Shown: one piece after another, positions 36,601 through 64,000 of the stretch
How positions within the stretch are numbered: position 1 is the stretch's first letter
Layout: each line of letters starts with the position of its first letter
Source: Pocillopora verrucosa
Lineage: Eukaryota; Cnidaria; Anthozoa; Scleractinia; Pocilloporidae
Assembly: GCF_036669915.1 (NCBI RefSeq)
Contig: NC_089315.1
Coordinates: 22,497,499 to 22,561,498, forward strand
Direction: 5' to 3'
Length of the DNA: 64,000 nucleotides
Notes under the pieces: generated by a model
Database searches by the model: none
What the model saw: the letters and a program-made list of their open reading frames with translations, nothing else
Told to the model about the DNA's origin: nothing
Position numbers and translations under genes: made by a program

Positions 36601-38688
36601 AGTTGCTTAAAACAAATACAAAGCCATCTTGTACGAGTTAAATTGTTCTGACAACGCGTTCATTAAAGTCTGCTCGGCTCTTATTTTAGGTCACCCAAAT
36701 GTTGGAAAGTCCTCCCTTTAATGGTCTCATCGGACACAAGGTTTGTAGCAGGGTTCTACAAGTTGTACTTTTCTTACTTTGAAGTTTACTTTGAGCCCTT
36801 TTTAGCGGGTGTGCGAATATATCATAAGGGTAGGGATTTCGCCATTGGCTTTGACGAAGTAGTAACGCTCGAAACGTCAGCTTTAGAAACTCTATAGGGT
36901 GGCCAATTTACATGATCAATACAGTCGATGAAACCAGATTACCTGATTTCAATAAAAGCCAGTTACCGTTGGTCTGCAGCCGACTGTACGACCACTCACC
37001 GCCGTCTTTTTAGCCAGCGGGCTCTCGTTTTTGGGTTTCGCCTTACGCTATTGAAACTGACCCCTGTAAGAGTCTTGGCTCTTAAAATAGTAGAACCCAC
37101 CTCTTTCATATACGTTTTGGATGTTCTTTTTCGTATATTTCTTCCCAACAGGTTAAGAGCACCTTTTGTTTCGCCTTACGTTATTTAAACTGACCTCTGT
37201 TAGAGTCTTGGCCCTTAAAATAGTAGAACCCACCTCTTCCGTACACGTGTCGAATGCTCTTTTTCGCATATTTGCTCCTAACAGGTTGTGAGCACCTCTC
37301 GTACGCCTGGCCACACCAAACATTTTCAGACTATATTTCTTACGCCCAACGTAGACTCTGTGACTGCCCCGGATTGGTGTTTCCTTCTGTCGTTGGTAAA
37401 CAGCTTCAGGTAAGCTGTGGTTTTTCTATGTTGCGATAACTTTGGTTGTGCGTTTCTTTCCCAAAGTGGGACTAAAAAATACTCTTAGTGGTAGCTCAGA
37501 GTAAATTTTCTTTAATTAAGTCGCGAATATTACGTCTACTGGTGTGGTTTAAAAGGGTGTGGACACAATTCTGTACACTTTTATGTCAGCCGAATTTAAA
37601 ACTCATGAATACGTAGACAAGTTGTTACTGGGTTTCCGATTTCGTTTCATGGGGATTTCGAGTCGATCGTACTTCACGCTCGTATCGTCACCAGAAGGAG
37701 TACTTATTCTGGAAGGTAATGATGCAACCCTTCAGTAATATAAAAGAAAAACTCTCCCTAGTTCCTGTGCGGCAATTTTTTTTGTTCTCTTATCGAGAAT
37801 AAAAGAGCGGATAAAGACACCCTATCCGAAAGATATATCTGATCATCCGTATGATTACCTACCTGTACCTAAACTTTGCCCTCTTACCTCTTTGTTTCAC
37901 TGGTACCCAGCTGTCACAATTCAGCCACAGATGTCAAGACATCCTCAGCAGATGTACTCAACGTTGTTGCCGTGTTTTCCTGCCCTTAGATCTTATCAGG
38001 AATGTATCCTATTTCACAAGTTCAGGAACCATACACCTCTGTGGGGTATTTAGCTGCCAGAGTACCCCTGGTTGATCTACTACAGCTGGTCCACCCCGAA
38101 AATAGAGCTGATTCTGATGGAGAGGGAGGGGTGGGAGAGGAAAACCATCCTTGGTCAGCATGGGATGTTTGTGACGGTGAGATGAATACTCTCCAGATCT
38201 AACCTGCTTCTTACAACATTTCGCTGTTAAATAACTTTTCTGAACATGACTGCAGTCTAAGTCTCTAACGGTGCTCTTGTTTTGATGATTCTTTCAGCCT
38301 GGGCTCATAAGAGAAGTTTTCTAACAGCAAAAGCAGGCCGCCCCGATGTATATCGAGCAGGTATTTGGCGTTGCTAACATCATCTCGGAAAGATTTGGGT
38401 TGAACTACCTGTACCTAGATGCAGACACCTAATCTTAGAAAGGAGATCAGACAAACAGAGCTTGCTAAGAATTTATGATGCGTGTCAGTGGCAAGGTGCA
38501 GTTGCTATGTCATAAAACTGATGCACAGACGTTTTGAGACGCCGGTAAGAGAATGCAGCATCTTCTCGCGCGCTTCTCCGTCAACCATTCAACTAAACGC
38601 TCGATTAAAATTTGTGAAGAGCATCAGGGTAGAGAATTTTTAACTTTTAGCTTGAAAATTCTGCAATTGACATGATCCTGAAACGATA

Positions 38689-38734
<46 letters not shown>

Positions 38735-39829
38735 TTTTAATGTTTGGTTTATTTTCTGTACTTTACATCTTAGCCAACAGTCTTTTGAGACTGACTGTGG
38801 ATGGCAAGATTGTTATGTGTGTATATCCACCAGGCTTCATAAACAAAAGAGGTAAGTCAATCGGAATCTTTTCCCCAATGATTTTTTGTGTGATGACATG
38901 GAATTGATAAGCAATTGCCTATTACAGTTTACCAGTGAAGGTGGGTGGCTCTATATAACTTTTTTGTGAGATGAAACACAATTAAACGACTCTTATGACA
39001 AGTGTGGGAAGGAAACGACGGACGAATTTCGCCTGAGTGAGGTAAAGCTAATAACAAAGACGTCACAAGGGCCAATCATAAAATAGTCTACTTGCTGTGA
39101 GATCAATATCAGTATCTGGGCAACTGCCCACCTACCCCTGGCCCCTGGCCCACATTAACCTTAACTGTTGTCAATTGACTGTTGTTGAGTTAGGAAAGGT
39201 ACGGACGAATTTCGCAGTTGCCTAGATACTGATATTGATCCCACTGCTTAGTAGTGCTCATTACTGTGAAGAATGCTGTCATATTCATTTCTTAACCCGC
39301 AGTTCACATATGTGATTTTCATATTAACACAGTCAATTATTCATCACTTCACGGGTTTATTACGAGCTAACATAGTGACCAGCTTCCAGTTGACTTGTTA
39401 ACTTGGTTGGGTAGAGCACTGCACCGGTATCGCAGAGGTCACGGGTTCAAATCCGTGCAGGCCTGAATTTTTTTTCAGGCCTTATTTTCACTACTGCCCA
39501 AGATCTCTTCCATGTTCAGAATAGCTTATGTTGTCACCATCGCTTTTGGTGTTACGCCTGAATCTTGAATCTTGCTATGGCTCAACAGATGAATGGCAGC
39601 AACATCCTGAAACGGAAGAGATTGCCCTTCTACAAGACAGACACTCAGAAAGCAAACGACTGCGACTTCAGGAAAACGAGGTGGACGAGCTGTCATTGCA
39701 TCTGCTTGCCCCTCCGGGCTGGAGCAAGAGAGATGAGAGACCGAGTAGTGATGGCGATGACGAACAGGAGGGGGGGAGGAAAGCGAAGTCATGTCCTCAA
39801 ACCCGTTTGCACTTCTGTCAGACGAGTGA
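30693..39829 (+). CDS. GNL1: GNL1 permuted GTPase, coding frame broken at nine sites
   Basis: Seventeen exons: 30693-30777, 30952-31123, 31740-31826, 32193-32238, 32891-33042, 33293-33365, 34002-34078, 35051-35183, 35322-35415, 35847-35941, 36440-36505, 36690-36740, 37285-37409, 37990-38176, 38298-38360, 38774-38851, 39589-39829. All borders are AG/GT and phases fit a 608-aa protein, the human GNL1 length. The order is that of a circularly permuted GTPase: MPRKKPFSNKQKKK basic start, KRPPWKYSMSKEQ, SDIVVLISDIRHP, G4 NK|ID, G1 GHPNVGKSS, G3 DCPG, QVQEPYTSVGYLA. Lesions: exon 3 -1, exon 5 TAA at 33013-33015, exon 6 +1, exon 7 -1, exon 9 +1, exon 10 -1, exon 12 -2 in the P-loop exon, exon 13 -1, exon 17 +2 G. 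Eight exons are intact. Either a pseudogene or consensus errors. The last exon would otherwise run to 39908. Confidence 0.9.
31876..32024 (-). repeat. MITE family C copy (reverse)
   Basis: CACTGATAAGGAAAATTTGT, GGGGTGATATTGTAAGGAG and an end in GAGTTAAGGGTTAA. Lies in GNL1 intron 3. Confidence 0.65.
32297..32500 (+). mobile_element. MITE family B, uninterrupted copy
   Basis: CCTTTTCACTCCCATGATCT, ACTGTCTGCCAAACAATTTT, TTGGATCAACTGAGAATC, ATTCTCATCACTTG and CACTCATGGGAGTC in the same order as the split copy at 9615-10022. Lies in GNL1 intron 4. Confidence 0.7.
34372..34560 (-). repeat. MITE family C copy (reverse)
   Basis: Contains CTCCCTATTGTTCTCTG, AACTGATAAGGAGAATTTGG and GGGTGAAAACTGTAAGTAAG. 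Diverged copy in GNL1 intron 7. Confidence 0.6.
34630..34867 (-). mobile_element. tRNA-derived SINE family 2 plus fold-back
   Basis: 34630-34740, read on the minus strand, has GTGGCTTAGAGCATCAGAGC (A-box-like) and GAGGTTCGATTCCTCATGGG (B box), so it derives from a tRNA-like pol III gene. Adjacent 34751-34867 is a fold-back: ACATAGAAATATTAGAGATG, then GTTTTGAGCTCAGTGAAGA and its complement. The same two modules adjoin at 27617-27790, so they form one composite family. Confidence 0.75.
34988..35015. repeat. Poly-T tract upstream of GNL1 exon 8
   Basis: A run of more than 20 T just 5' of the acceptor at 35050. It may serve as part of a long polypyrimidine tract and is a sequencing-error hotspot. 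Confidence 0.6.
35461..35640 (+). mobile_element. MITE family C copy
   Basis: CCTAAGAGTGAGTAGCATCT, CTTACAATATCATCCCTGAA, AAGGAAATGATCGCC and GGTATGGAGAATATGCATAC match 28613-28822. Lies in GNL1 intron 9. Confidence 0.7.
36840..36915. repeat. Family D MITE, half copy
   Basis: AACGCTCGAAACGTCAGCTT followed by AGGGTGGCCAATTTACAT equals one arm of the fold-back at 4029-4160. Lies in GNL1 intron 12. Confidence 0.65.
37037..37305 (+). repeat. Tandem duplication including GNL1 exon-13 acceptor
   Basis: Two ~130-bp units: TTTCGCCTTACGCTATTGAA...CCCAACAGGTTAAGAGCACC and TTTCGCCTTACGTTATTTAA...CCTAACAGGTTGTGAGCACC. Each unit holds AGAGTCTTGG, AATAGTAGAACCCACCTCTT and a CAACAG-type splice acceptor with the first bases of exon 13. 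The second unit is followed by the real exon; the first is a decoy acceptor. Separated by a few tens of substitutions and small indels. Confidence 0.8.
38697..38735. repeat. CT/TA microsatellite (left arm)
   Basis: CTCTCTCTATATATATATAT with one interruption. The mirror locus 63747-63837 is much longer. Confidence 0.9.
39101..39240. mobile_element. MITE family E, present in left arm only
   Basis: 27-bp terminal inverted repeats GATCAATATCAGTATCTGGG+CAACTGC and GCAGTTGCCTAGATACTGAT+ATTGATC with one mismatch class, 140 bp in all. The core is CCACCTACCCCTGGCCCC. It lies in GNL1 intron 16. The right arm runs straight from GTAAAGCTAAT to CATTACTGTGAAG without it (around 63385). Confidence 0.85.
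39257..39492 (+). mobile_element. tRNA-derived SINE family 1 (left arm)
   Basis: Near 39402-39463 a tRNA-like body has an A-box-like TTGGTTGGGTAGAGC, an anticodon-arm-like CTGCACCGGTATCGCAG and a B box CACGGGTTCAAATCCGTG with a perfect 5-bp T stem. The tail GGCCTGAATTTTTTTTCAGG forms a hairpin. Upstream CATTTCTTAACCCGCAGTTC and CATATGTGATTTTCATAT blocks recur at 21135-21345. Repeated family and tail indicate a SINE rather than a working tRNA. Confidence 0.8.
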
Positions 39830-42760
39830 AGTATATAACGAAGGAATTCGTGCCACCGCTGTTACGAAGTGTCAATTGATTGCGCCCTCGAGAAGTGACG
39901 CGAGATGATGTGCAGTGGAGCACATTACACTCAATTCATAAATCCGCTTTTAGCTTGTTCGTCGCTTGACGCCGCTGATGATGAAAGAAACATCTCAGAA
40001 TATGGGAAAGAGACAAAAGGGATGTCTAATTCTCTAAACTGAAAAAATTACCAAAAAATGTAACATGAATCACTCATCATTTGTGAACAGCGGTTTGTGG
40101 GATAACTTTCGGAATCACTTAACGCATTTTATTGGTTATCTTTACCGGGGAAAAATTCTCGCCAGGTTGTTGCATTTGCGTAAAAAAATACCAAAGCTCT
40201 CGCACAGTATTTTTTCTTTTACCTCAATGGGGCTGAAATAAAGAGTGAAAATGAATAATGTTAGTTTAATGATAATGATGGTGATGCATTCATGCAGCGC
40301 AACCTTCATATAACTACCCTCTAATACGCTTTACAACACCCTGCGGGGGACTATGGCCAGACTGCATTAAGCAGTTTACAATTTTGAAAGGAAATTTTGC
40401 AGGTGCCCCTAATTTTAGAACTTTTGGAAACTTAGCCAGACCTACGTTCCCTACTCTTTTCAAACAGAGCGTGGATTCTTTAACGTCCCCTCTCAACCAA
40501 TGCAGTGAAGATGCAGGAGAGGGGCCTGCGGTTTATCGTCCTTATCCGAGAAGACTGGAACGTCTAACCTTAAGCGAATGCAATAGCAGAGGCTGTAGCA
40601 CCTTCTCCCTCGTCATCATTTACAATAATCAGAATGAGGTTCCCCCCCCCCCCCTGAGGGAATAAGTTCAAAAGACATCATTGCAGTGGCCGCCAACCTA
40701 ACGTAAAACAAACATAAAAGCGCAAGGCCACAGGTTTCGAGAGAGGGAATGCGTGTGTGACGGAGAAGGGACTGGGTTCGGTTCTGCACCTGATTAGCTC
40801 GCTAAAGAAGCACACTGTTTTGGTGCTAGTTAATCAACAGTAGGCGAGGGATTTCAAACTGATTGTAATTGAAAATTGCCCGTTTTGATTCATTTGAATG
40901 CAAACAAGGAAAAAGAGCTTTTCCTTTGAAAAATGAACCATGTACACTGCAGCACGTTCTTGAGATTCAGATGGATGAAATATGCAGGTAAAAAATTTCA
41001 AAACTCAGTCGACAGCGATGACATGATCGTGCTAATTTGAAAGAGGATGATGATGACTCTTTGCGAGGACACCAAAGAGTCTGAAATGGAATAAAATTTC
41101 ACTTTGTATATCATGAATCAAATCGCGAATATCCAATAAGCAATTTTCACGACTTCGAAAGAATGCGTTATGATTTAGTACAGACTCCTAAATTGGGGAC
41201 TAAATTGGAATGCTGTCCGGTCGTCAGATTTGTTTATCACGAATATTACTGAGTATTACTCATTGCTATTACCATTACATAACATACAGGGGAAATTTTA
41301 GATGCTGATCGGCTGAGACAGCTCCATTAATTTGGTAATTTCCCAGGACACAATTACTTGAAATTGAGAACATTGACGAGGGCAATACAATTTATGCAAC
41401 TTCTAAAAACACTCGTGATATTAATCCTTAATTTTACTCGGCCCCGTACGATTACCTCTTTCGTAATGCTAATGAGAATACAGGCGACACACCAGTCACG
41501 TAAGGAGTAGGAAAAACGACCGACTGCAAAGGTGAGATACGTGTTAAGATAGGTAAAGAAAGTGGTCCCGGAAGTAAGGGGTCTCACATTTTCTTCGAGT
41601 ATCACAGCGGTTTGCTGGTCTCGCACTCTTGGTCTCGAAAATTTAAAGATCAGGGCCTAGTTTTGTTTTCGAAAAATACCTCGGTGTTATGTGTTTTGAA
41701 GCCAACCCGTCTTGAGAAACATCCTGTGTGTTTCTAACACATTTTTGGAACTGTTTACACCTGTACCATGTACGTGCTTCAGTGGATAAATGTTTTACAA
41801 TTTGCAGTAAATAAATATACGTAAAAATCCATACAAATCAAGGACCTAAATACTTTTTGACTCTTTGATTCGGATTTTTATAAATAGCATTCTATTCTCG
41901 TCGAGCAACGAGTTACAGAAGCTATTTTAAAATAGTTATTCATAGATGAAATATTTAGCAGCGCCTTAAAGTGTATTCTTGGACTCAAATATTACGTATC
42001 AGTGTTGTTACGGTTTTGGTACTACCAGAAATGGCTTTGAACAAATTTTTTGTCGTTGCGTGACAGTGACCTTCGTACTTCCTGATACAAAATGAACAGT
42101 ATTCTAATTTTGCATCTTTGTTAATAATTATCCATTTTTTTTTTTTTTTGGGACTCGAATGGTGTTTTATTTGATCGTTTTCTCGTAGGCGACTACCGCC
42201 TTCAACAGTTGATCTAGTTGTTTTAAAACCGTGGGTGGATATTCCAGAGATATTTAAAGGAATTTCGAACCAAATGAAAGGATTACAAAGACATTGCACT
42301 GACGTGGTACTCGTTTAAGTTGAAACCGAAATTCTGTCTATCCATGTGAGCCACGTGTATTTGTTAGGAATAACACACAATAATGTGTGGGAGAATCAAA
42401 CAAATGGACTCGCCAAATGACCGTCAAGAACGCCCGAGATTATCATTATTCAGGGTAACATAAAGCATTTTAATAAAAAAAAAACCATTCAATGTTGTGA
42501 AGAAAAAGGATTTCAAATGAAACTTACGATGGTTTTAAACTATAATACGTAGTTATATTCAGATGCTTCGGCAACACTGACGTAATTATTCAATAACACA
42601 ATTTTTATCAATAGTAGCTAACCCAAAAAGGAAGAATGCGCTTTGGATTTCCGGTCTGCAAACCTTTCATCTTTGGATTTGCGTAAGAAGGCTTGGCTTT
42701 TTAAGGACAAGAGTTCACGCTGGATAGTCAGAATTTGTAGGTGAATCAAACTACAGAACA
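39830..42760. other. Intergenic region GNL1-caspase (left arm)
   Basis: About 2.9 kb with no supported gene. It contains caspase 5' flank, a C-run near 40640-40652 and a stretch at 40310-40600 (TTTACAACACCCTGCGGGGG ... GGACTATGGCCAGAC) that reads like an interspersed-repeat fragment. All is mirrored at 59880-62816. Confidence 0.5.
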
Positions 42761-44426
42761 ATGGGCAACGTTTTGTTTAACTATTTAGGTAACGGTGTGA
42801 GCGAAGATCTCCGGGAGGAAATCGCCCGTCACGGTAAGTTTCAGACTGGATTCCAATCAAGATGCATTATGAAGCGGTCCTTAATTTTTTTTAGTCATAA
42901 GATCCAATGCCTCTTTCAACTAACCGTGCAAAATACGTACTGACATCTCAATCCGTGATGTTGAACCAACTGACCGAAGTAAACATTAATTGATGTGTTC
43001 AGTCTCAATGTGAGAAAACGCACAAAAAGATTGCTCTTTGTCAGGATGTTCTCGCCCTAACTTTGAGCAGCGTTGTTCTCACCTTCAACTGTTACTGGCC
43101 TTCCATTTTCAAGTCCTTTTGAAAAGGCTTTGTGAAATAAAACTGAGTAAACTTTGAATTATTCATAGAAAATTAAACAAATTATAACGCGTTCGTTTTC
43201 GTGTTTACAGGCAAGGCGTATGATGCCGATGATTCGATTCAGTTGACACCCACTCTTCAAATGGCAGATACGAGTCGAAACGTCAATCGTGTAAAAGACC
43301 TGCCAAAGGATCAAGTCTACGAAGGGGTGCAGAATCCGTATGTGTTAGTGATAAACAACGTGAACTTTAAAGAAGACCCAGTACCAAGGAATGGAGCCGA
43401 ACACGATCTTAAAAACGTGGAAACGTTTTTACGAGAAGCTGGTTTCGAGTCTGTGGAGAAGCGTTACGATCTGGAAAAAAAAAGAGATGATGGCAGCTTT
43501 TGACGAAACTCGAAAAAGTATTGAATCAGGTAAGTGGCTTTACACCGAATTTCTACCTTTTTGCTCTCAGCGATGGAAGCTGATCTGATGAGCGTCTACT
43601 CCATTGCCTTTGTTTGGTCTTGTCACGCAACATGCTCTCCTTAAAATGGAAGGAGATCATTGTACGAGGTTCAGTCACTTATCGCCGTCGAAGCCCTACA
43701 GCACATGCTCTCTCCGCCCTCAAAGGACGAGAGCAAATGACAAAGTTATTTTTTAACTCGGGCTCCTGTTTTGTAAGGTCTGGTATGTAAATAATAAGAA
43801 GAGCTGTTACAAATTCAATTCTAATCGAATAATTTCATTGCACAGGTAAACATGACGGCCTCATATGCATCATCATGAGTCACGGCGATGACAGAGGAAT
43901 CAAGTGCAAGAACGGTGAAACCATTCCAGTTGACGAAATAACCTCTAAATTCCGTGGTAGCGATGAATCGTGTCCACAGCTAGCGGGAAAACCTAAACTA
44001 TTCTTCCTTCAAGCATGCAGAGGAATAGTCGACGATAGAGGGTATCGGCATGCAGCCAGTTCGCAAGACGACGATGTTGTTGCTGATAGCTTTTCTTCTG
44101 AGAGAACGTCTCTGACGCTTCCTTCTGATGCAGATTTTTTGATTAGTTACTCTACCACCACGGGTTACAAGTCATTCAGGAGGTTCACCATGCCCACAGC
44201 AAGTGCACCACCCAGTGAAACGCTCGGCTCCTGGTTCATCTTCACATTAATGAGAGTTCTACGGGAAAATTCACACAAGGACGACTTGATGACAATGCTG
44301 ACTAAGGTGAATCAAGAAATGATTAAATATGCGACAGGCAAAGGCTGCAAGCAGATTCCAAGCCATGTCTCCATGCTCACACGAAAGGTCTTCTTCACAA
44401 ATTTTTTTAATAATAAGACATTTTAA
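42761..44426 (+). CDS. Caspase, short prodomain (left arm; one-base frameshift)
   Basis: Exons 42761-42833, 43211-43529 and 43846-44426 in phase 1. Peptidase C14 hallmarks: the p20 start NPYVLVINNVNF, Arg of PVPRNGAEHDLKNVETFL, catalytic His in MSHGDD, catalytic Cys in QACRG, the p10 pocket FLISYSTTTGYKSFR and GSWFIFTL. Only about 50 residues precede the catalytic domain, with no CARD or DED, as in effector caspases. An Asp-rich linker between QACRG and p10 offers cleavage sites. A nine-A run at 43475-43483 (eight in the right arm) shifts exon 2 and creates an early stop. The pocket is SFR instead of the usual SWR, and p10 has an extra Pro/Ser-rich loop. AATAAA at 44497-44502. Caspases cleave after Asp in apoptosis or inflammation. 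Confidence 0.88.
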
Positions 44427-45671
44427 TTTAACCATAAAAAACAAACATCTCTTTATCATTCCTTGCTTTTGGCTGTAATAAATTTACTTGTTGTGAAATA
44501 AAGATCATTTTCAAGCTGTAAGTGTTGTCTATTCGATGAATGCGGGTAAGAAAGTTGTTTCTGCGAATTCTTACTAACATCACATTAAATTTTCTATTTC
44601 TTCTGCGATATTTTTTCAATTTCATCCGAACAGGGAACTCGAATGCCTGTTTCATGATACACCATCGCGCGCAACATCGAACGTTGGAAAAACTGTAGGT
44701 ACACGAGGCCAAAAACTACCATGGTTTACATTAATGGTGCAAATAGTGCTTTTCTATTGTGGTCCGTTAAACCAAAACAGTTTTTCTGTCAGCGAATCAG
44801 AACAAATTGGGAACTTCAAGTGAAACAATTCAAGTGCCAGAAGTGCGAGAAAACGCTGGTAGCCAAGTCGCGGTTGATCTCAGTAAAGAATTTGATAGGG
44901 TGGGAGAGAGACGTTTCTCAGGTGGTGAAGTGAAGTACTGGAAACCAACGAAATCTAGTATTATTTTTGACACGTAAACGAAAATTTATAGAGCTCGAGA
45001 TCAGGACTAATTTGAGACTATTTCTCAAAAAGGGCTCATAAACTTACGGCACTCCCATCGAGAGTCTCTCAAATGCCGACTCACAAAGGCCTCGTAAGGT
45101 GTTTAGATCATATAATGAGTTACCCTTGATTGGTGTCAAATGCCAAAATGGAACTGGACGTTGATAAACCTCCGCTCTATTTGAACATTTGGTTCTCATT
45201 CATTTTAGGTTTTCTTTAAATTGGTAATATAAATCAGATTCACTTTAGCATGAGTTTGAGTCTAATTCCATCTGTCGAAAGGGAGTCGGCTTCCTGTAAT
45301 CAGAGTGTTTTATTTAATACTTTATAAGGAAACTGGCCTGAACATACGTGACACGAAGTTCTTTGGGCACTCGACGACGCTCGAGGCCAAAAGGACTCTT
45401 TTCTCTTCCTCTTCCAGCATCGGAAGAAGGGAAACAATTTCTTTCAAGACCAATATCCCAGAATCTTACTGCCAGCCTTTCCTTATTAAAATTTTTATTG
45501 ACATTAACAGATTATCCAAATGATAGCGATCTTTGCGTGAATACAAAATAAATGTTTTGAATTAAACTTGCACGGCTGTCGATAAGATATTTGGTACTAT
45601 CTTCATTACTTCTTCAGTTTAAACCAAAATTCTTTCATACACATATTGCATAAACACAGAAAGTTAAGTCT
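44427..45671. other. Convergent 3' region, caspase / CIMIP2B (left)
   Basis: The two genes end tail-to-tail 1.2 kb apart. Poly(A) signals AATAAA at 44477-44482 and 44497-44502 serve the caspase. Small open frames here lack any family or splice support. Mirrored at 56973-58215. Confidence 0.5.
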
Positions 45672-48631: not shown

Positions 48632-48663
<32 letters not shown>

Positions 48664-52005: not shown

Positions 52006-52867
52006 GGCCGCCAACTTCTCTCAAGAAGCTAGTTTATGTGACCTTCTTTAGCGTTTTCTCAAGAAATAAAACTCAACTGCTGTCACGAAAATAACTTGCA
52101 TACGAGAATTCGCGCTAGTCTCACTGACAACCCAATGAGAACCGACTGGTGATTACTTTCTCTTGTTACGCATGCTTCGAAGTCTCGCGCCGTTTTTCTG
52201 CCCGAAGATGACGATTCTTCGCCTAAATCTTCGGAAAAGTCTTCGCCAACGTTAAAGATTCCCGACGCGACGAGTACTCGTTGCTATGGTGGTTCAGTTG
52301 CTACCATGTCCGCTGGTCGAGAGGAACGAGTGCTCGTCAGTGTTGATATCGACCAATAATGGTCAATAGTGCACAATCATCGTTTATAAAAAAAGAAAGC
52401 TTAATTATGCCGTCGATACCTCGACAAATTCTTCTCAATATTCTCAGCAAGTGAAGACTACACAGAAGCGAGACGATGACAATTTTTTTTCTGCTTGATT
52501 ACTGGTTGTCACTATTGAGTTTCTTTAGTATATTTGCATATTTGTATCTCGCGTGTTGCCACTTGGGTGACGCAGAACAAAACAATTGTTTAAACCGAAC
52601 AATGGCTCACCATAAAAACCTATAATCGAAAATAGAAGAGACCACCTTTTAGGCTTAAAAATTTGCATTCAAATAGGTAGTATTTATGTCATTGTTCCGA
52701 TAAGCTCGCGCGGTCTTCTGGGTCTATTGTTAATTAAGTCATACGGATAATTGAGTATAATGTATTTATTAGTCAATTGTCGATCCAGTTGAATCTGAGT
52801 GCTTTAGTAGATTATGCCTTTGTAAGATCACGCTTTAAACGGCGGTGAATCTCGACAGCGCACTAAA

Positions 52868-55800
52868 ATGAGAGGAACTAGGAAATCTACACTTATGACT
52901 CCGGATCCATACCACATACCGGGGTAGGTAATATCTGGCAGGATTTTATAATCTGTCGCGCCCTGTGCAAATCGCTTACTCCTCGCAAATACTTTTAAAT
53001 AGAACACGAACTTCATTTTTGCCAGCGAGAATTTATGTCTTTATGATTGCTTTGCTTACGCAGTTATTGCGGTTATTGCCCACAATTCAAGTACCAAATT
53101 GGCGAAACTTTCGGAAGAACAACCTCTCAGCTTTTGACAACATCTAGTGTGGCTAGCTCCGGCAGGCCTGTACTGTCCGACATAACTCCACATCCCCGAC
53201 CGCCGAAGGACAACAGGAGATCTTTGATAGCGGCGCGTTGCAAAAATCTCGGCGATCAGAAATTGTGCGATGAAATGGTGCCAAACTACACAGGTAGGAA
53301 GTAGAAGCGATGTTTTTTCTTACTTTAAGCTCTAACACATATCCTAGAGCTATGTTTTGAAGCGATTATCTAATCGTATATTATAATCCTTGGTACACAA
53401 ACGAGTGTCAAAGAAGTTTATTGCGGTTTGCTTTGCTAAAGAAATGAAAACAAATCGCTGCTTGTGGAGGGATTCGTGAAAAGATGTTGAAATATAGTGA
53501 TATTTCATGACAAAATCTAGAACAACTTTTATCCCTTCCGCTATAAACGATAGAAAATAAATTGAAAGAATTTAAAGGTGACAGGCACGAACACAAGAGT
53601 AGCGAGGGTTTTATTCTCGTTTAGAGAAGGAGCAGAAACACCAGAAAGACCGACAATGTTCAATTAAAAAACTTGAACCGTGTCTGAGCCTAGAAAAAGT
53701 GGTTTGAAATCATTTAATTCGTTTTCGAGAGATATGGAAGAATCAGACGTCCCAGTGTTTTCCTGTCTTGTGACTCGTGTGGTGAATAGTTTACAGCTGT
53801 AACCAAGGGAGCAGACGAGTCTCGATTTCATGAGCTTTAAAATTTATGTAATGTATGCGTTGCCCATCAGATAACTGAATATTGCGTTACCTTTGTTTGT
53901 CATATTATGATATGCCGCTGGAACATACACCAGTTTAGGCATAACAGACTCAACATCGGATAAAATTGCTTTTTTGGTAATCAAAGTACTCGTGAAAGGA
54001 ACAAAAAAAAAAAAACAAAAAAAAAAACATATATATAAACATATACTAGGGAAATTTACATAATACGCGGTAAACTTAAAAACTTTAAAGTTCAGCTGTT
54101 GCGTAGCAACGCTTCGTTTCTGTGTCGGCATGAAGATACGGGTTGCCTTATATTGGTGATGGAAAAATGAATGGAAATATTACACTACTTTAAGCCATTC
54201 GATAAAAAAAAATTATAATAGCCAGGTTGATCATTTCTTATTCCTTTTGGCGGTCTCATCTTGGTACCATTTCTTTGACCTTTTTCTTATTGTGGTTGTG
54301 GAAGAAAAACCAGGAGAAACCAGGCTACCAAAAGAAAAGCCAGGAAAACCAAGCAAAACAGCAAAATCAAAGAACATTAAGGACTAGTGACATTCAAGGC
54401 CACTGAAGGAAACAACAGAAAAGCCAGGATAGCGGGAAAGTCAACACTTACTTGAAGGTTGTTACATAACAGCAGAGTATACACAAAATTCGAAGATTAC
54501 ACATTCGTTTACCCCTTAAATCACCTCTAAGAAAAAGAGGTGTCGAACGTGTTAAATTAAAAACTAAAAACTATTTTCCTGATCGGGAATTCGACAAGGA
54601 TTCAGCGTAAAAACGAGAGTATTAAATGGATAAAAGTATAAAGGAGGGTTATTTCCAGGAAAGTCCTGTACGGGATCAATTTTTATAGGGTAGAGTCATT
54701 TTCTTGGTACTTAATTATTTTTCTTAGCAACATAATGAAAATATACCGGTAACTAGCTGCAAACCGCAGCTTACGCAGAAACATCTGTCTCCATGTCAAA
54801 TTCACAACCACAATAAGAAAAAGGTTAAAGAAATGGTACCTATATAAGACCGCCAAAAGGAATAAGAAATGATCAACCTGGCTATTATAATTTTTTTGTA
54901 TCGAATGGCTTAAAGAAGTATAATATTTCCATTCTTTTTTCCATCACCAATATAAGGAAACCCTTACAATATTTCAGATTAAATATAGTTCTATTTTTAT
55001 TGTTTAGCAGGCTTAAACAATTTCTTAAAGCGCTTAAGAAGATTTTTTTTAGCTGTTAAAAAGTTACTTCAGCAAAAAAATTCAGGTGTATCTGTAATGA
55101 TATTTGCCCACTAAAAAGGGCAGATATTCCGGCTTTAGTATTGCTCTTAGTCAAACAAATAACTGAATTTGACCGAAGGTTTTAACCTTCCCGTGTGTAT
55201 CAGAACTTGGTAAAATAGGCTTGTAATGAAGTGTGTCGGTGCAAGGTACCTTAAGAACTTCCAGTTTCCTCAATCCTCTCTTTTATCGAGAAGGAGTTAA
55301 GGACTCCAGCCAGAGACACGAGACTACCGCGGTAAATGATTCGAGTATATTTAACAACAATTCACCGAAGTGAAGGTGGCTAGTGGTGGACAGTTACCAA
55401 GCTGCAAAGCGGCGAGGTAAATACTCATTGCCAGACGACTCTGAGGTGGATAGTTGTTTTAGTATATACTAGAATAGTGTGATAACGTAGCAAAAAAAAG
55501 TTGATTTTAATTCGTTTAGTCCTGCGACAATTAAATTATTTTCGAGCATAAATCCCGTGTGCGCTGCTTGAAGGTGAATAGCAAAGAATATTCGGATCTT
55601 AAATCGCCAATCAGAGCGCGCCTTCCGCAATATTTACTCCTAATTGTGTACTAAATGAGTAAATAAAGCGGTGCCGCAAATTTCTAGCAAACGCACGCGG
55701 ATGACGTGACTTGATATGCCACCGAGAGTTTTTTCATATGACAAAAAAGTAAGTTGCAGATGGAGGTACGTTTGGGCCCCGTACCCACCCCACAAGGGAC

Positions 55801-56972
55801 ACAGGGAAATGTTTTCGTCGTCCCCTCGCCACAATCCCCCGATGCGCGAAACAAAAACCCCACCCATTTGGACATGCTCAAAGCCATCACAGCATTGACC
55901 TTTCCCCCTTTTTTTGATCATCAGGTTATATACCAAAAGGAGAGCATTACTTTGGAAAACCTTACGCAGACACGTGTTTAAGCGCCATTGCAAGTTTCCA
56001 GGAAGACCAAGTGAAAAATAATCGTAAGATCCGCGACCTAAGAACAATCGCAGAGTTGCAAAAAGGCAAAGACGTTCCCAAAGAAATGCTATCCAGTGAT
56101 ACCTTGATTACAACCAAGTACAAGACTCCGCTCAAGTCAATAACTATTCGACCTAAGGCGTATTATTCCCCATTCGCTTTACAACATTCACTTTCCCCAT
56201 TCATAATGAGTAACGACGACCCGAAGAAGTTCCTCATGTCGGGATACACGGGATTCGTCCCGCGAGCTAGGGGCGAAATGGGAATGGGCTATCCCCTGTT
56301 GACGAATAAAGCGCTGTGTGATTTCACGGTTGAAAGTGACAGGCTGAAGCGTGTCAAGGAGCTGCCGATAACTGTCGATCGACCCGAGATCAAAATCGTC
56401 GACACCAAGCCGATTTACATCCGAGGTTCGGGACAGGTCCCTCATTACACTGGACATGTGCCAGGTACAGTATCCATTCTCTACCAGTTTCCCTGAAAAT
56501 AGGATTTCTTAAGGCGTTTGTAACGCCCGACAACTTTAAGTCGTACAGAACAACACTCTATTATATCCTGCTGCTTAACGAACAAGTATGTTGATATCTA
56601 AAACCCATTACTAGAAGCAAAATTACATTGGAATCGCTAAAGCTCGTTAGATCTGCACATCAAAGAAGATCGCGCATATGAAAATGAAGCAGCAAAACAA
56701 AAAGCAAATTGGCGCCGGCCGAAACTTCATAAATGTCCAAAAGTTTGAAAAAACTCTGAAAAAACTTTGAACTCTTTCCTAACAAAGCTCTCTTCATCAG
56801 TGAGAGATCTGGGTGCGAGATTAATGACAGATTTCCCTTTTCTCGTAGCTCGCTGGAAGAGTTTACTGAACGTGTCACTTTTATTTGGTTTTCAGGTGAG
56901 AAATTCCGTTATGGGATGACATTTGGGTACAGCACCCAGAACGCAGCGCCTATGAAAGCCCTGACCGCCTAA
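52868..56972 (+). CDS. CIMIP2B: Ciliary microtubule inner protein 2B (FAM166B)
   Basis: Four exons, 52868-52923, 53064-53293, 55925-56464 and 56896-56972 (TAA), phases 2, 1, 1, give 300 aa. A second in-frame ATG at 52895 would give 291 aa. Four copies of the family's P-x-Y-x-G-x-x-P motif appear: IPGYCGYCP near residue 17, VPNYTGYIP near 93, MSGYTGFVP near 200 and VPHYTGHVP near 268. Each is followed by a F-G or M-G turn (IGETFG, HYFGKPY, MGMGYPLLTNKAL, RYGMTFG). This matches CIMIP2B, which binds inside axonemal doublet microtubules. The strongest anchor is DPKKFLMSGYTGFVPRAR followed by LLTNKAL. Poly(A) signal AATAAA at 57145-57150. Tail-to-tail with the caspase. No lesion seen, unlike the left copy. 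Confidence 0.9.
54140..54963. mobile_element. Non-autonomous DNA transposon with TIRs (right)
   Basis: Mirror of 47674-48525: TIRs 54140-54300 and 54803-54963. The left-arm copy has an extra ~20-bp tandem duplication of TTCTTAGAGGTGATTT that is single here (near 54525). Confidence 0.8.
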
Positions 56973-58215
56973 AGACTTAACTTTCTGTGTTTATGCAATA
57001 TGTGTATGAAAGAATTTTGGTTAAAACTGAAGAAGTAATGAAGATAGTACCAAATATCTTATCGACAGCCGTGCAAGTTTAATTCAAAACATTTATTTTG
57101 TATTCACGCAAAGATCGCTATCATTTGGATAATCTGTTAATGTCAATAAAAATTTTAATAAGGAAAGGCTGGCAGTAAGATTCTGGGATATTGGTCTTGA
57201 AAGAAATTGTTTCCCTTCTTCCGATGCTGGAAGAGGAAGAGAAAAGAGTCCTTTTGGCCTCGAGCGCCGTCGAGTGCCCAAAGAACTTCGTGTCACGTAT
57301 GTTCAGGCCAGTTTCCTTATAAAGTATTAAATAAAACAATCTGATTACAGGAAGCCGACTCCCTTTCGACAGATGGAATTAGACTCAAACTCATGCTAAA
57401 GTGAATCTGATTTATATTACCAATTTAAAGAAAACCTAAAATGAATGAGAACCAAATGTTCAAATAGAGCGGAGGCTTATCAACGTCCAGTTCCATTTTG
57501 GCATTTGACACCAATCAAGGGTAACTCATTATATGATCTAAACACCTTATGAGGCCTTTGTGAGTCGGCATTTGAGAGACTCTCGATGGGAGTGCCGTAA
57601 GTTTATGAGCCCTTTTTGAGAAATAGTCTCAAATTAGTCCTGATCTCGAGCTCTATAAATTTTCGTTTACGTGTCAAAAATAATACTAGATTTCGTTGGT
57701 TTCCAGTACTTCACTTCACCACCTGAGAAACGTCTCTCTCCCACCCTATCAAATTCTTTACTGAGATCAACCGCGACTTGGCTACCAGCGTTTTCTCGCA
57801 CTTCTGGCACTTGAATTGTTTCACTTGAAGTTCCCAATTTGTTCTGATTCGCTGACAGAAAAACTGTTTTGGTTTAACGGACCACAATAGAAAAGCACTA
57901 TTTGCACCATTAATGTAAACCATGGTAGTTTTTGGCCTCGTGTACCTACAGTTTTTCCAACGTTCGATGTTGCGCGCGATGGTGTATCATGAAACAGGCA
58001 TTCGAGTTCCCTGTTCGGATGAAATTGAAAAATATCGCAGAAGAAATAGAAAATTTAATGTGATGTTAGTAAGAATTCGCAGAAACAACTTTCTTACCCG
58101 CATTCATCGAATAGACAACACTTACAGCTTGAAAATGATCTTTATTTCACAACAAGTAAATTTATTACAGCCAAAAGCAAGGAATGATAAAGAGATGTTT
58201 GTTTTTATGGTTAAA
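56973..58215. other. Convergent 3' region, CIMIP2B / caspase (right)
   Basis: 3' UTRs only. AATAAA at 57145-57150 (plus) and, for the caspase, TTTATT at 58141-58146 (AATAAA on the minus strand). No further gene is supported. Confidence 0.5.
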
Positions 58216-59879
58216 TTAAAATGTCTTATTAAAAAAATTTGTGAAGAAGACCTTTCGTGTGAGCATGGAGACATGGCTTGGAATCTGCTTGCAGCCTTTA
58301 CCTGTCGCATATTTAATCATTTCTTGATTCACCTTAGTCAGCATTGTCATCAAGTCGTCCTTGTGTGAATTTTCCCGTAGAACTCTCATTAATGTGAAGA
58401 TGAACCAGGAGCCGAGCGTTTCACTGGGTGGTGCACTTGCTGTGGGCATGGTGAACCTCCTGTATGACTTGTAACCCGTGGTGGTAGAGTAACTAATCAA
58501 AAAATCTGCATCAGAAGGAAGCGTCAGAGACGTTCTCTCAGAAGAAAAGCTATCAGCAACAACATCGTCGTCTTGCGAACTGGCTGCATGCCGATACCCT
58601 CTATCGTCGACTATTCCTCTGCATGCTTGAAGGAAGAATAGTTTAGGTTTTCCCGCTAGCTGTGGACACGATTCATCGCTACCACGGAATTTAGAGGTTA
58701 TTTCGTCAACTGGAATGGTTTCACCGTTCTTGCACTTGATTCCTCTGTCATCGCCGTGACTCATGATGATGCATATGAGGCCGTCATGTTTACCTGTGCA
58801 ATGAAATTATTCGATTAGAATTGAATTTGTAACAGCTCTTCTTATTATTTACATACCAGACCTTACAAAACAGGAGCCCGAGTTAAAAAATAACTTTGTC
58901 ATTTGCTCTCGTCCTTTGAGGGCGGAGAGAGCATGTGCTGTAGGGCTTCGACGGCGATAAGTGACTGAACCTCGTACAATGATCTCCTTTCCATTTTAAG
59001 GAGAGCATGTTGCGTGACAAGACCAAACAAAGGCAATGGAGTAGACGCTCATCGGATCAGCTTCCATCGCTGAGAGCAAAACAGGTAGAAATTCGGTGTA
59101 AAGCCACTTACCTGATTCAATACTTTTTCGAGTTTCGTCAAAAGCTGCCATCATCTCTTTTTTTTCCAGATCGTAACGCTTCTCCACAGACTCGAAACCA
59201 GCTTCTCGTAAAAACGTTTCCACGTTTTTAAGATCGTGTTCGGCTCCATTCCTTGGTACTGGGTCTTCTTTAAAGTTCACGTTGTTTATCACTAACACAT
59301 ACGGATTCTGCACCCCTTCGTAGACTTGATCCTTTGGCAGGTCTTTTACACGATTGACGTTTCGACTCGTATCTGCCATTTGAAGAGTGGGTGTCAACTG
59401 AATCGAATCATCGGCATCATACGCCTTGCCTGTAAACACGAAAACGAACGCGTTATAATTTGTTTAATTTTCTGTGAACAATTCAAAGTTTACTCAGTTT
59501 TATTTCACAAAGCCTTTTCAAAAGGACTTGAAAATGGAAGGCCAGTAACAGTTGAAGGTGAGAACAACGCTGCTCAAAGTTAGGGCGAGAACATCCTGAC
59601 AAAGAGCAATCTTTTTGTGCGTTTTCTCACATTGAGACTGAACACATCAATTAATGTTTACTTCGGTCAGTTGGTTCAACATCACGGATTGAGATGTCAG
59701 TACGTATTTTGCACGGTTAGTTGAAAGAGGCATTGGATCTTATGACTAAAAAAAATTAAGGACCGCTTCATAATGCATCTTGATTGGAATCCAGTCTGAA
59801 ACTTACCGTGACGGGCGATTTCCTCCCGGAGATCTTCGCTCACACCGTTACCTAAATAGTTAAACAAAACGTTGCCCAT
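58216..59879 (-). CDS. Caspase, short prodomain (right arm; intact)
   Basis: Exons 59879-59807, 59429-59112 and 58793-58216 (phase 1 introns) encode 322 aa without interruption. Catalytic dyad: His in MSHGDD and Cys in QACRG. The Arg of PVPRNGAEH and the Arg of GYKSYR would form the P1-Asp pocket. The usual SHGEE and SWR are here SHGDD and SYR. p10 contains an added Thr/Pro/Ser-rich insertion (MPTASAPPSETL) before GSWFIFTL. With about 50 residues before the p20 domain and no CARD or DED, it resembles an effector caspase. An Asp-rich stretch (QDDDVVAD) after QACRG is a likely processing site. It is the twin of 42761-44426, differing by F/Y in the pocket, one Asn near the C-terminus and the A-run length. 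Orthology to a specific vertebrate caspase cannot be set by eye. Confidence 0.92.
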
Positions 59880-62816
59880 TGTTCTGTAGTTTGATTCACC
59901 TACAAATTCTGACTATCCAGCGTGAACTCTTGTCCTTAAAAAGCCAAGCCTTCTTACGCAAATCCAAAGATGAAAGGTTTGCAGACCGGAAATCCAAAGC
60001 GCATTCTTCCTTTTTGGGTTAGCTACTATTGATAAAAATTGTGTTATTGAATAATTTACGTCAGTGTTGCCGAAGCATCTGAATATAACTACGTATTATA
60101 GTTTAAAACCATCGTAAGTTTCATTTGAAATCCTTTTTCTTCACAACATTGAATGGTTTTTTTTATTAAAATGCTTTATGTTACCCTGAATAATGATAAT
60201 CTCGGGCGTTCTTGACGGTCATTTGGCGAGTCCATTTGTTTGATTCTCCCACACATTATTGTGTGTTATTCCTAACAAATACACGTGGCTCACATGGATA
60301 GACAGAATTTCGGTTTCAACTTAAACGAGTACCACGTCAGTGCAATGTCTTTGTAATCCTTTCATTTGGTTCGAAATTCCTTTAAATATCTCTGGAATAT
60401 CCACCCACGGTTTTAAAACAACTAGATCAACTGTTGAAGGCGGTAGTCGCCTACGAGAAAACGATCAAATAAAACACCATTCGAGTCCCAAAAAAAAAAA
60501 ATAAATGGATAATTATTAACAAAGATGCAAAATTAGAATACTGTTCATTTTGTATCAGGAAGTACGAAGGTCACTGTCACGCAACGACAAAAAATTTGTT
60601 CAAAGCCATTTCTGGTAGTACCAAAACCGTAACAATACTGATACGTAATATTTGAGTCCAAGAATACACTTTAAGGCGCTGCTAAATATTTCATCTATGA
60701 ATAACTATTTTAAAATAGCTTCTGTAACTCGTTGCTCGACGAGAATAGAATGCTATTTATAAAAATCCGAATCAAAGAGTCAAAAAGTATTTTAGGTCCT
60801 TGATTTGTATGGATTTTTACGTATATTTATTTACTGCAAATTGTAAAACATTTATCCACTGAAGCACGTACATGGTACAGGTGTAAACAGTTCCAAAAAT
60901 GTGTTAGAAACACACAGGATGTTTCTCAAGACGGGTTGGCTTCAAAACACATAACACCGAGGTATTTTTCGAAAACAAAAACTAGGCCCTGATCTTTAAA
61001 TTTTCGAGACCAAGAGTGCGAGACCAGCAAACCGCTGTGATACTCGAAGAAAATGTGAGACCCCTTACTTCCGGGACCACTTTCTTTACCTATCTTAACA
61101 CGTATCTCACCTTTGCAGTCGGTCGTTTTTCCTACTCCTTACGTGACTGGTGTGTCGCCTGTATTCTCATTAGCATTACGAAAGAGGTAATCGTACGGGG
61201 CCGAGTAAAATTAAGGATTAATATCACGAGTGTTTTTAGAAGTTGCATAAATTGTATTGCCCTCGTCAATGTTCTCAATTTCAAGTAATTGTGTCTTGGG
61301 AAATTACCAAAATTAATGGAGCTGTCTCAGCCGATCAGCATCTAAAATTTCCCCTGTATGTTATGTAATGGTAATAGCAATGAGTAATACTCAGTAATAT
61401 TCGTGATAAACAAATCTGACGACCGGACAGCATTCCAATTTAGTCCCCAATTTAGGAGTCTGTACTAAATCATAACGCATTCTTTCGAAGTCGTGAAAAT
61501 TGCTTATTGGATATTCGCGATTTGATTCATGATATACAAAGTGAAATTTTATTCCATTTCAGACTCTTTGGTGTCCTCGCCAAGAGTCATCATCACCTCT
61601 TTCAAATTAGCACGATCATGTCATCGCTGTCGACTGAGTTTTGAAATTTTTTACCTGCATATTTCATCCATCTGAATCTCAAGAACGTGCTGCAGTGTAC
61701 ATGGTTCATTTTCAAAGGAAAAGCTCTTTTTCCTTGTTTGCATTCAAATGAATCAAAACGGGCAATTTTCAATTACAATCAGTTTGAAATCCCTCGCCTA
61801 CTGTTGATTAATTAGCACCAAAACAGTGTGCTTCTTTAAAGCGAGCTAATCAGGTGCAGAACCGAACCCAGTCCCTTCTCCGTCACACACGCATTCCCTC
61901 TCTCGAAACCTGTGGCCTTGCGCTTTTATGTTTGTTTTACGTTAGGTTGGCGGCCACTGCAATGATGTCTTTTGAACTTATTCCCTCAGGGAGGGGGGGG
62001 GGAACCTCATTCTGATTATTGTAAATGATGACGAGGGAGAAGGTGCTACAGCCTCTGCTATTGCATTCGCTTAAGGTTAGACGTTCCAGTCTTCTCGGAT
62101 AAGGACGATAAACCGCAGGCCCCCTCTCCTGCATCTTCACTGCATTGGTTGAGAGGGGACGTTAAAGAATCCACGCTCTGTTTGAAAAGAGTAGGGAACG
62201 TAGCCTGGCTAAGTTTCCAAAAGTTCTAAAATTAGGGGCACCTGCAAAATTTTCTTTCAAAAATTGTAAACTGCTTAATGCAGTCTGGCCATAGTCCCCC
62301 GCAGGGTGTTGTAAAGCGTATTAGAGGGTAGTTATATGAAGGTTGCGCTGCATGAATGCATCACCATCATAATCATTAAACTAATATTATTCATTTTCAC
62401 TCTTTATTTCAGCCCCATTGAGGTAAAAGAAAAAATACTGTGCGAGAGCTTTGGTATTTTTTTACGCAAATGCAACAACCTGGCGAGAATTTTTCCCCGG
62501 TAAAGATAACCAATAAAATGCGTTAAGTGATTCCGAAAGTTATCCCACAAACCGCTGTTCACAAATGATGAGTGATTCATGTTACATTTTTTGGTAATTT
62601 TTTCAGCTTAGAGAATTAGACATCCCTTTTGTCTCTTTCCCATATTCTGAGATGTTTCTTTCATCATCAAGCGGCGTCAAGCGACGAACAAGCTAAAAGC
62701 GGATTTATGAATTGAGTGCAATGTGCTCCACTGCAAATCATCTCGCGTCACTTCTCGAGGGCGCAATCAATTGACACTTCGTAACAGCGGTGGCACGAAT
62801 TCCTTCGTTATATACT
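59880..62816. other. Intergenic region caspase-GNL1 (right arm)
   Basis: Mirror of 39830-42760. No gene is supported. The C-run/G-run near 61990-62003 corresponds to the left arm's 40640-40652. Confidence 0.5.
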
Positions 62817-63703
62817 TCACTCGTCTGACAGAAGTGCAAACGGGTTTGAGGACATGACTTCGCTTTCCTCCCCCTCCTGTTCGTCATCGCCATCACTACT
62901 CGGTCTCTCATCTCTCTTGCTCCAGCCCGGAGGGGCAAGCAGATGCAATGACAGCTCGTCCACCTCGTTTTCCTGAAGTCGCAGTCGTTTGCTTTCTGAG
63001 TGTCTGTCTTGTAGAAGGGCAATCTCTTCCGTTTCAGGATGTTGCTGCCATTCATCTGTTGAGCCATAGCAAGATTCAAGATTCAGGCGTAACACCAAAA
63101 GCGATGGTGACAACATAAGCTATTCTGAACATGGAAGAGATCTTGGGCAGTAGTGAAAATAAGGCCTGAAAAAAATTCAGGCCTGCACAGGATTTGAACC
63201 CGTGACCTCTGCGATACCGGTGCAGTGCTCTACCAACCAAGTTAACAAGTCAACTGGAAGCTGGTCACTATGTTAGCTCGTAATAAACCCGTGAAGTGAT
63301 GAATAATTGACTGTGTTAATATGAAAATCACATATGTGAACTGCGGGTTAAGAAATGAATATGACAGCATTCTTCACAGTAATGAACATTAGCTTTACCT
63401 CACTCAGGCGAAATTCGTCCGTCGTTTCTTTCCCACACTTGTCACAAGAGTCGTTTAATTGTGCGCCAACGCCAGGTTTACACGCTCTTTTTTTTGCTTT
63501 TTTCATCTCACAAAAAAGTTATATAGAGCCACCCACCTTCACTGGTAAACTGTAATTGGCAATTGCTTATCAATTCCACGTCATTGACACGAAAATCATT
63601 GGGGAAAAGATTCCGATTGACTTACCTCTTTTGTTTATGAAGCCTGGTGGATATACACACATAACAATCTTGCCATCCACAGCCAGTCTCAAAAGACTGT
63701 TGG
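62817..63703 (-). CDS. GNL1: GNL1 3' exons, second copy (right arm)
   Basis: Exon 16 (63703-63626) and exon 17 (63055-62817) on the minus strand, with acceptors and donor identical to the left copy. Exon 17 is 239 bp and reads through an acidic stretch (SSDGDDEQEGEESE) to NPFALLSDE-stop, matching the acidic tail and NPYALL-type C-terminus of GNL1. The left copy has seven G instead of five at this point and loses that ending. Exon 15 would lie beyond base 64000, so whether the rest of GNL1 is duplicated cannot be told. Confidence 0.88.
63155..63385 (-). mobile_element. tRNA-derived SINE family 1 (right arm)
   Basis: Mirror of 39257-39492, with the GGATTTGAACCCGTG B-box complement near 63190 and the CAGTGCTCTACC A-box complement near 63225. 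The T-stem closes as CACGGGTTCAAATCCTGTG with a small difference from the left copy. Confidence 0.8.
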
Positions 63704-63744
63704 CTAAGATGTAAAGTACAGAAAATAAACCAAACATTAAAAAA

Positions 63745-63746
<2 letters not shown>

Positions 63747-63837
<91 letters not shown>
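63747..63837. repeat. Expanded AT/AG microsatellite (right arm)
   Basis: About 25 AT dinucleotides followed by about 19 AG. The left-arm equivalent (38697-38735) has a handful of CT and about 20 TA with an interruption. Confidence 0.9.
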
Positions 63838-63839
<2 letters not shown>

Positions 63840-64000
63840 CGTTTCAGGATCATGTCAATTGCAGAATTTTCAAGCTAAAAGTTAAAAATTCTCTACCCTG
63901 ATACTCTTCACAAATTTTAATCGAGCGTTTAGTTGAATGGTTGACGGAGAAGCGCGCGAGAAGATGCTGCATTCTCTTACCGGCGTCTCAGAACCGTCTG

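Follow-up and report, generated by a model that had tools for sequence, protein, structure and literature searches.

A near-perfect palindrome spanning GNL1, caspase and CIMIP2B sequences in the Pocillopora verrucosa assembly: very probably an assembly artefact

Gene content and extent of the palindrome

The window analysed here is a stretch of 64,000 nucleotides of the coral Pocillopora verrucosa (NC_089315.1, positions 22,497,499 to 22,561,498) from an assembly of 353.4 Mb in 52 contigs. It carries GNL1 and, in two inverted arms separated by a short spacer, paired copies of a caspase gene and of CIMIP2B-like frames. The features discussed below are listed in window coordinates, which are continued beyond position 64,000 where necessary.

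30693..39826, + strand: GNL1, exons 1-2 clean, eight break places in exons 3-17
31700..34799, + strand: error-rich stretch outside the mirrored part, GNL1 exons 3-7 (exons 3, 5, 6 and 7 broken by frameshifts and a stop)
34751..34867, no strand: short hairpin, with the outer end of the right block at its middle
34800..51140, + strand: left arm, error-rich, with GNL1 exons 8-17, tRNA-like element, caspase and CIMIP2B; mirrored by 67,965-51,526
39054..39256, + strand: 203-bp insertion with inverted ends, left arm only; haplotype-type variant
42761..44423, + strand: caspase, left copy, frameshift at 43,475
46146..49621, - strand: CIMIP2B-like frames (not gene limits), left copy, frameshift at 46,476
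51141..51525, no strand: spacer (385 bp), ordinary downstream flank of the locus, recurring forward past the N run
51525..51526, no strand: probable false junction between downstream flank and inverted block; the spacer end ATCAGGA is followed here by the inverted arm and in the next contig by GACACGG
51526..64000, continuing to 67,966, - strand: right arm, a clean block with CIMIP2B, caspase and GNL1 3' exons in open frames; N run next
53047..56499, + strand: CIMIP2B-like frames (not gene limits), right copy, open
58219..59879, - strand: caspase, right copy, open frames; matches P. verrucosa caspase-3 isoform X2

In self-BLAST on the minus strand, positions 39,252-51,140 of the left arm align with 63,391-51,526 of the right arm at 99.08% identity over 11,915 columns, with 35 mismatches and 43 gap openings. 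Large indels lower the identity to 84% in an outer piece (38,526-39,052 versus 64,000-63,388). Beyond the window, homology reaches 34,800 on the left and 67,965 on the right, so that the whole palindrome comprises about 33.2 kb. Among the listed inverted pairs of at least 500 bp in the 313.5 kb examined, those longer than 2 kb were exclusively pieces of this palindrome. No chance model is needed for an inverted match of 12 kb at 99% identity. A pair of long inverted arms with high identity is what a biological palindrome would show, and natural Y-chromosome palindromes carry genes, as the arms here do. Palindromes of this type, which are named in passages of PMC6218980, share with the present one inverted arms of about 99% identity and a spacer.

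A sequence-only reading of the window had proposed a long near-perfect palindrome with similar but not identical arms running past the window end, and the alignments confirm both the arms (about 99.1% over 11.9 kb) and the continuation beyond position 64000. Its assignment of GNL1 3' exons to the mirrored part also holds, as do those of a caspase (domain PF00656, tested in the left copy) and of CIMIP2B (CIMIP2B-like domain PF10629, tested in the right copy). The TIR transposon it named is consistent with inverted 164-bp pairs found by self-BLAST at 47,672-47,835/48,366-48,528 and 54,137-54,300/54,803-54,966. The SINE, presumably the tRNA-like element, attains the Rfam threshold in the right arm (63,179-63,251) and falls below it in the left one. 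The matching caspase-3 isoform X2 is probably the same locus as the right caspase copy. Among the literature matches listed, no paper treats Pocillopora and palindromes together, and none was recognised as the methods paper for this assembly.

Reading frames and differences between the arms

The quality of the two arms, judged from reading frames, is highly unequal, one copy being much poorer than the other as would be expected of an artefact. Ten break places were counted in 1,033 codons of the left zone, a 4-base loss at 35,888 being scored as one place and the indels at 39,409 and 39,454, both within the tRNA-like element, lying outside the count, versus none in 892 codons of the right block and none in 1,268 codons of the left flank, where a few of the 866 DNAAF5 codons were counted twice at exon edges (guide protein of 845). 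For the right GNL1 exons the check consisted of tblastn frames, with frameshift-aware alignment added for two of them; CIMIP2B was judged from the frames of one exon without an outside protein as reference, and a kelch frame of 316 codons entered the count as an open frame only. Within the codons held by both arms, all six breaks fall into the left arm (35,888, 36,717, 37,352, 39,770, 43,475 and 46,476), and each site is intact in the right arm.

The remaining four breaks are situated outside the mirrored part and comprise three frameshifts (31,790, 33,314 and 34,054) and one stop (33,015). The left limit of the error-rich zone lies between the last clean exon end at 31,130 and the first break at 31,790. 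A search for a second full copy of the 31.7-34.8 kb stretch, which could not reach inside the N run, yielded, with 40 of the 6,395 candidates scored, one full-length match and otherwise short repeats. As no second full copy turned up there, these four breaks are not accounted for by decay of a duplicate. An open GNL1 of 609 aa that is nearly identical to these broken exons exists (P0121). The clean exons 1-2 are on the forward strand; exons 8-17, also clean, are carried by the right block on the reverse strand, an arrangement which suggests that a false inversion has divided a single gene.

Breaks in GNL1, caspase and CIMIP2B that occur only in the left arm could also be read as pseudogene decay after a real simple inverted duplication. 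Natural decay, however, yields many more substitutions than indels, and GNL1 exons 3-17 of the left copy combine eight break places with nine amino-acid differences in 521 codons. Moreover, the sole copy of GNL1 exons 3-7 that was found is itself broken in four of the five exons (40 of 6,395 candidates scored), and such a duplication leaves the forward restart with the spacer, described below, unexplained. Decay of the left arm is rejected on this ratio of indels to substitutions together with the broken state of the sole copy found, and a real simple inverted duplication is barely credible.

The nucleotide differences between the arms likewise depart from a mutational profile, in which substitutions exceed indels. 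The inner arms differ by 40 substitutions, eight of them within one 20-bp cluster, and 42 indels, one of which is at the edge of the aligned stretch, compared with 263 and 47, respectively, for a duplication nearby (Fisher p 1e-10). In all 26 other listed repeat pairs, mismatches outnumber gap openings by at least 3.4:1. The outer arms (34,800-39,256) show 51 substitutions versus 19 indels, a ratio nearer to the natural one and less extreme than that of the inner arms, which counts against an artefact. The innermost 2,063 bp are devoid of substitutions (p 0.0005 for 40 independent, uniformly placed substitutions; 0.002 for 33, an alternative used because of the cluster of eight); gene conversion would produce the same pattern, and this too counts against an artefact.

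Larger indels of 203, 240, 48, 37 and 22 bp separate the arms as well. A small divergence combined with insertion polymorphisms is allele-like, and from their sequence the arms would represent different haplotypes. These indels bear on the idea of a fold-back chimeric long read, produced from both strands of a molecule or by strand switching during amplification and incorporated into the contig. Such an origin, also an artefact, would yield an inverted duplication of a locus like the one observed; palindromic reads are common after whole-genome amplification according to passages of PMC6218980, and for nanopore reads, parts of PMC7229812 describe a loss of quality over the second of the two arms of an inverted duplicate. 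In contrast to those artificial reads, the arms here do not derive from one folded molecule, as the indels of 22 to 240 bp indicate, and the forward restart past the N run would require a second event. A single fold-back read is rejected on these two grounds, and fold-back in general is very improbable as the source of the palindrome.

Spacer, N run and order of the pieces

The centre of the palindrome had been regarded as a unique 385-bp sequence. Its length is correct (51,141-51,525) and its uniqueness applies only inside the window: bases 1-365 are found again 24 kb further along at 98% identity (window coordinates 75,914-76,275, C4:22,573,413-22,573,773), with other sequence beyond, and the spacer has partial matches at two places on C12 (75% and 80%). 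Because the forward recurrence continues into other sequence, the spacer is the ordinary downstream flank of the locus and not a loop; a role as a meaningful loop is rejected because of this second copy. The argument that a unique spacer speaks against an artefact fails with it.

At its outer end, the right block is bounded by a run of 7,277 N (67,967-75,243) and not by real flank, the homology stopping at most 2 bases from each edge of the run. A position at a contig boundary or gap is again typical of an artefact, the run being either a gap or a withheld stretch. The other two N runs observed comprise 100 N each; the long one could have been withheld by the operator instead of being an assembly gap, and could hide further copies. 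Past it, the spacer returns in forward direction together with the final 670 bp of the arm, and other sequence follows; when this start of the next contig is aligned with the right arm (679 columns), there are 6 mismatches and 13 gap openings. The order of the pieces is forward-reverse-N-forward, and the sequence at the inner junction departs from the continuation of the spacer in the next contig. Compared with natural palindromes, the locus is set apart by differences of the error type, an arm edge at an N run and a spacer repeated outside, and two genomic copies are unsupported.

A forward-inverted-forward order is also known from ODIRA and DUP-TRP/INV-DUP rearrangements, both named in passages of PMC7229812. 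A real, perhaps heterozygous, inverted triplication of GNL1-caspase-CIMIP2B in Pocillopora would explain this order and, with inner arms homogenised by gene conversion, the substitution-free inner 2 kb, provided that the N run conceals most of the third copy and that bad base-calling affected the left copy alone. Against it stand breaks that are confined to the left copy and extend past the duplicated part, the ratio of indels to substitutions in the inner arms, which is unlike that of nearby repeats, the arm edge at the N run, and a third copy too large for a 7.3-kb gap, if the size of the gap is right. We consider a triplication very improbable.

Origin of the palindrome and consequences

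On this sequence evidence, the palindrome is very probably an assembly artefact of one kind or another, and not a biological palindrome. The best reading is that the real locus is single-copy, comprising DNAAF5, GNL1, caspase, CIMIP2B, the spacer and downstream sequence. As the particular steps we infer misorientation and gap filling. A clean contig of about 16.4 kb from the middle of the locus (the right block, 51,526-67,966) would have been put in reversed, and the gap separating it from the left contig would have been filled with long-read sequence of this same region that had been poorly polished. The filled part would start within 31.1-31.8 kb, end at 51.5 kb and be derived chiefly from the other haplotype; the contig on the right would then restart with its own rough end, in which the spacer and the final 670 bp of the arm are repeated. 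This course, which takes its share of the confidence placed in an artefact as such, is moderately probable. Misoriented short contigs are described in passages of PMC7672694, and a contig of 16.4 kb belongs to the class that is hard to orient, although the scaffolding method here may differ. Since there is no N at 51,525/51,526, the join was made at the sequence level, for which scaffold misorientation alone is insufficient; this counts against the proposed course. PacBio Sequel II is named in a table of PMC12250223 for a P. verrucosa assembly of 353,416,094 bp, which is likely the present one; if the reads were HiFi, so many indels would be unexpected, which counts against that course as well. 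PMC12250223 also lists an independent P. verrucosa assembly, GCA_030620025.1, as nanopore plus Illumina.

A haplotype false duplication without gap filling, again an artefact, is a tentative alternative. Here, a contig would have run along one haplotype and back along the other, and polishing reads would have been drawn to the better copy, leaving the left arm unpolished. The allele-like indels between the arms and the central junction without N agree with it. False haplotype (heterotype) duplications in long-read assemblies, as described in passages of PMC8081667, likewise place two haplotype copies in one chromosome beside a gap, the second copy being poorer as reads align to the better one, and according to PMC10236652 (section 30) allelic regions may stay unpolished. 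At this locus, however, the second copy runs in inverse orientation and its join lacks N, so that the result resembles a palindrome, and the cases in those passages of PMC8081667 are not described as inverted. The breaks at 31,790-34,054, moreover, have no second full copy that was found to divert reads, unless it lies inside the N run. With four breaks in 31.7-34.8 kb and no other full copy found there (40 of 6,395 candidates scored), polish starvation is less likely to be the whole story.

The sequence-only reading had left two options open and is partly supported overall. Two haplotypes concatenated inversely by the assembly come close to the artefact reading favoured by the spacer recurrence, the breaks and the allele-like indels. 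The other option, an inverted duplication of biological origin with gene conversion between its arms, is not supported.

The reference chromosome presents one locus twice, with the conserved GNL1 split by a false inversion and broken caspase and CIMIP2B sequences beside open ones. The twin caspase and CIMIP2B genes are almost certainly not to be counted as real duplicates. The block at 51.5-68.0 kb should be treated as probably reversed, and the combination of an indel-rich arm, one-sided frame breaks and an arm edge at an N run could serve to screen other assemblies. For studies of gene duplication or palindromes in corals, window positions 31.7-51.5 kb (C4, about 22.529-22.549 Mb) are to be regarded as suspect.

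Extent and contents of the palindrome

The right 25 kb of the window is taken up by an inverted repeat in which 39,252-51,140 mirrors 63,391-51,526 with 99.08% identity around a centre of 385 bp, and the near-perfect palindrome described in the sequence-only reading is thereby confirmed. The window was placed at C4:22,497,499-22,561,498 in a 353.4-Mb assembly of 52 contigs, and 50 kb of sequence starting just inside its right end were read. In window numbering extended outside the window, the mirror reaches 34,800 in the left arm and 67,965 in the right arm. The following parts are distinguished:

34,800-51,140, plus strand: left arm (L)
51,141-51,525: spacer, the centre of the palindrome
51,526-67,966, minus strand: right arm (R)

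Both arms contain GNL1 3' exons, a tRNA-like element, a caspase and CIMIP2B-like frames. The top named match of the caspase is the Pocillopora verrucosa caspase-3 isoform X2, which is probably the same locus and hence provides no independent evidence. The genome holds two near-identical copies of the caspase stretch, L and R, and most of its weaker relatives lie in an array at C2:18,631,060-18,651,295, whose members have 64-78% DNA identity to it. Also found nearby were a short-unit repeat stretch, open in several frames (1,551-2,071), a degenerate inverted fragment with stops and 71% identity to exon 3 of GNL1 and the sequence around it (79,416-79,705), and a tandem array whose copies are spaced at 72 bp and are about 87-91% alike (86,488-87,329).

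Reading-frame breaks in the two copies

Reading frames were examined by frameshift-aware alignment guided by close proteins for DNAAF5 (P0241), GNL1 (P0121) and the caspase (P0001). Neither DNAAF5 at 11.8-25.8 kb (866 codons) nor GNL1 exons 1-2 (86 codons) showed a break. In GNL1 exons 3-17 on the left, eight break places were detected, comprising seven frameshift places and one stop, with exons 4, 8, 9, 11 and 14-16 intact. Two right GNL1 exons aligned in the same way were free of breaks, and the remaining ones, exons 8-15, have one open frame each. The caspase carries one frameshift in the left copy and none in the right, and the CIMIP2B exon has a frameshift on the left, at 46,476, and is open on the right. 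In total, 10 break places in 1,033 codons of the left zone stand against none in 892 codons of R (Fisher p 0.0024) and none in 1,268 codons of the left flank, including a kelch frame of 316 codons (p 0.0003). Within codons present in both arms, all six breaks are on the L side (sign test 0.03), and the tRNA-like element reaches the Rfam threshold in R only.

Four of the break places fall within 30,500-34,799, a stretch whose one full-length match in the assembly is itself, besides short repeats, among the 40 of 6,395 candidates that were scored. A conserved GNL1, open in P0121, would thus be broken in its only copy, and the left zone, starting somewhere in 31.1-31.8 kb and ending at 51.5 kb, is therefore best interpreted as a region of poor consensus quality. 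In nanopore sequencing, quality drops in the second arm of a true inverted duplicate (PMC7229812); however, reads from both strands should then spare the arms equally, and the rough zone extends past the visible mirrored part.

Differences between the arms

The inner arms (L 39,257-51,140) differ by 40 substitutions (21 transitions and 19 transversions, eight of them in one cluster) and 42 indels, 36 of which are single-base. Same-base runs of at least two make up 49% of the bases and hold 28 of 41 small indels; runs of at least four make up 10% and hold 17. The control was a direct tandem duplication of 7.1 kb:

-28,118 to -7,692, on C4, 8-28 kb left of the window: control tandem duplication (loci L017-L019)

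It shows 263 mismatches and 47 gap openings at 94.5% identity, and the indel to substitution ratio differs from that of the inner arms with p 1e-10. These counts come from two aligners, MAFFT for the inner arms and BLAST for the duplication, but BLAST on the palindrome (35 mismatches, 43 gap openings) gave the same outcome. Mismatches outnumber gap openings by 3.4:1 or more in each of the 26 further repeat pairs listed, many of which overlap. Decay of the left copy was rejected, given the indel share of the inner arms and the breaks in the only copy of GNL1 exons 3-7 found among the 40 candidates scored. A point on the other side is that the outer arms (34,800-39,256), with 51 substitutions and 19 indels, are closer to a natural proportion, which would be expected from genuine allelic differences on top of errors.

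An insertion of 203 bp at 39,054-39,256, present in L only, contains a short element whose ends are inverted and is apparently an insertion polymorphism between haplotypes. R carries insertions of 240, 48 and 37 bp, and the arms also differ by a 22-bp unit. Such allele-like differences speak against one folded molecule, so that a fold-back read, itself an artefact, is very improbable as the source. The inner 2,063 bp (49,077-51,140) contain three indels but lack substitutions altogether (p 0.0005 to 0.002 under a uniform distribution). This could result from patchy heterozygosity or gene conversion and counts as a point against an artefact.

Sequence order and origin of the palindrome

The end of R at 67,966 adjoins a run of 7,277 N. 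Starting no more than two bases beyond this run, L 50,471-51,505 reappears in forward orientation, comprising the arm's last 670 bp and most of the spacer. This spacer copy does not turn back and runs into other sequence, which gives the order forward copy, spacer, reversed copy, N, end of forward copy, spacer, downstream sequence. The simplest single-copy source is a left and a right contig that overlap slightly, separated by a single surplus block in reverse. The next contig likewise begins with rough sequence, differing from R by 6 mismatches and 13 gap openings over 679 columns, and the outer end of the R contig lies midway along a short hairpin at 34,751-34,867, a plausible site of an assembly break. 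Homology is cut at both edges of the N run, be it a gap or a withheld stretch that may hide more.

Real forward-reverse-forward rearrangements of the ODIRA type exist as a class (PMC7229812), and the central junction is free of N; both points count against an artefact. The palindrome is nonetheless very probably an assembly artefact, whatever its course. No description of the methods used for this assembly was found among the papers listed in a literature search. PMC8081667 reports haplotypes falsely retained as duplications, in some cases at contig boundaries, with one copy staying at lower quality because the other draws the reads, and PMC7672694 reports short contigs placed in the wrong orientation. 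The best account, whose exact steps are inferred and which we consider somewhat more likely than not, is as follows: a clean contig of 16.4 kb would have been set in reversed orientation, and the space ahead of it closed by rough long-read sequence from the left, which would have overrun the contig's true position up to the end of the spacer. A walk back along the other haplotype, equally an artefact but with no gap filling, is rather unlikely. The head-to-head twin genes proposed in the sequence-only reading most likely represent a single locus that appears twice.
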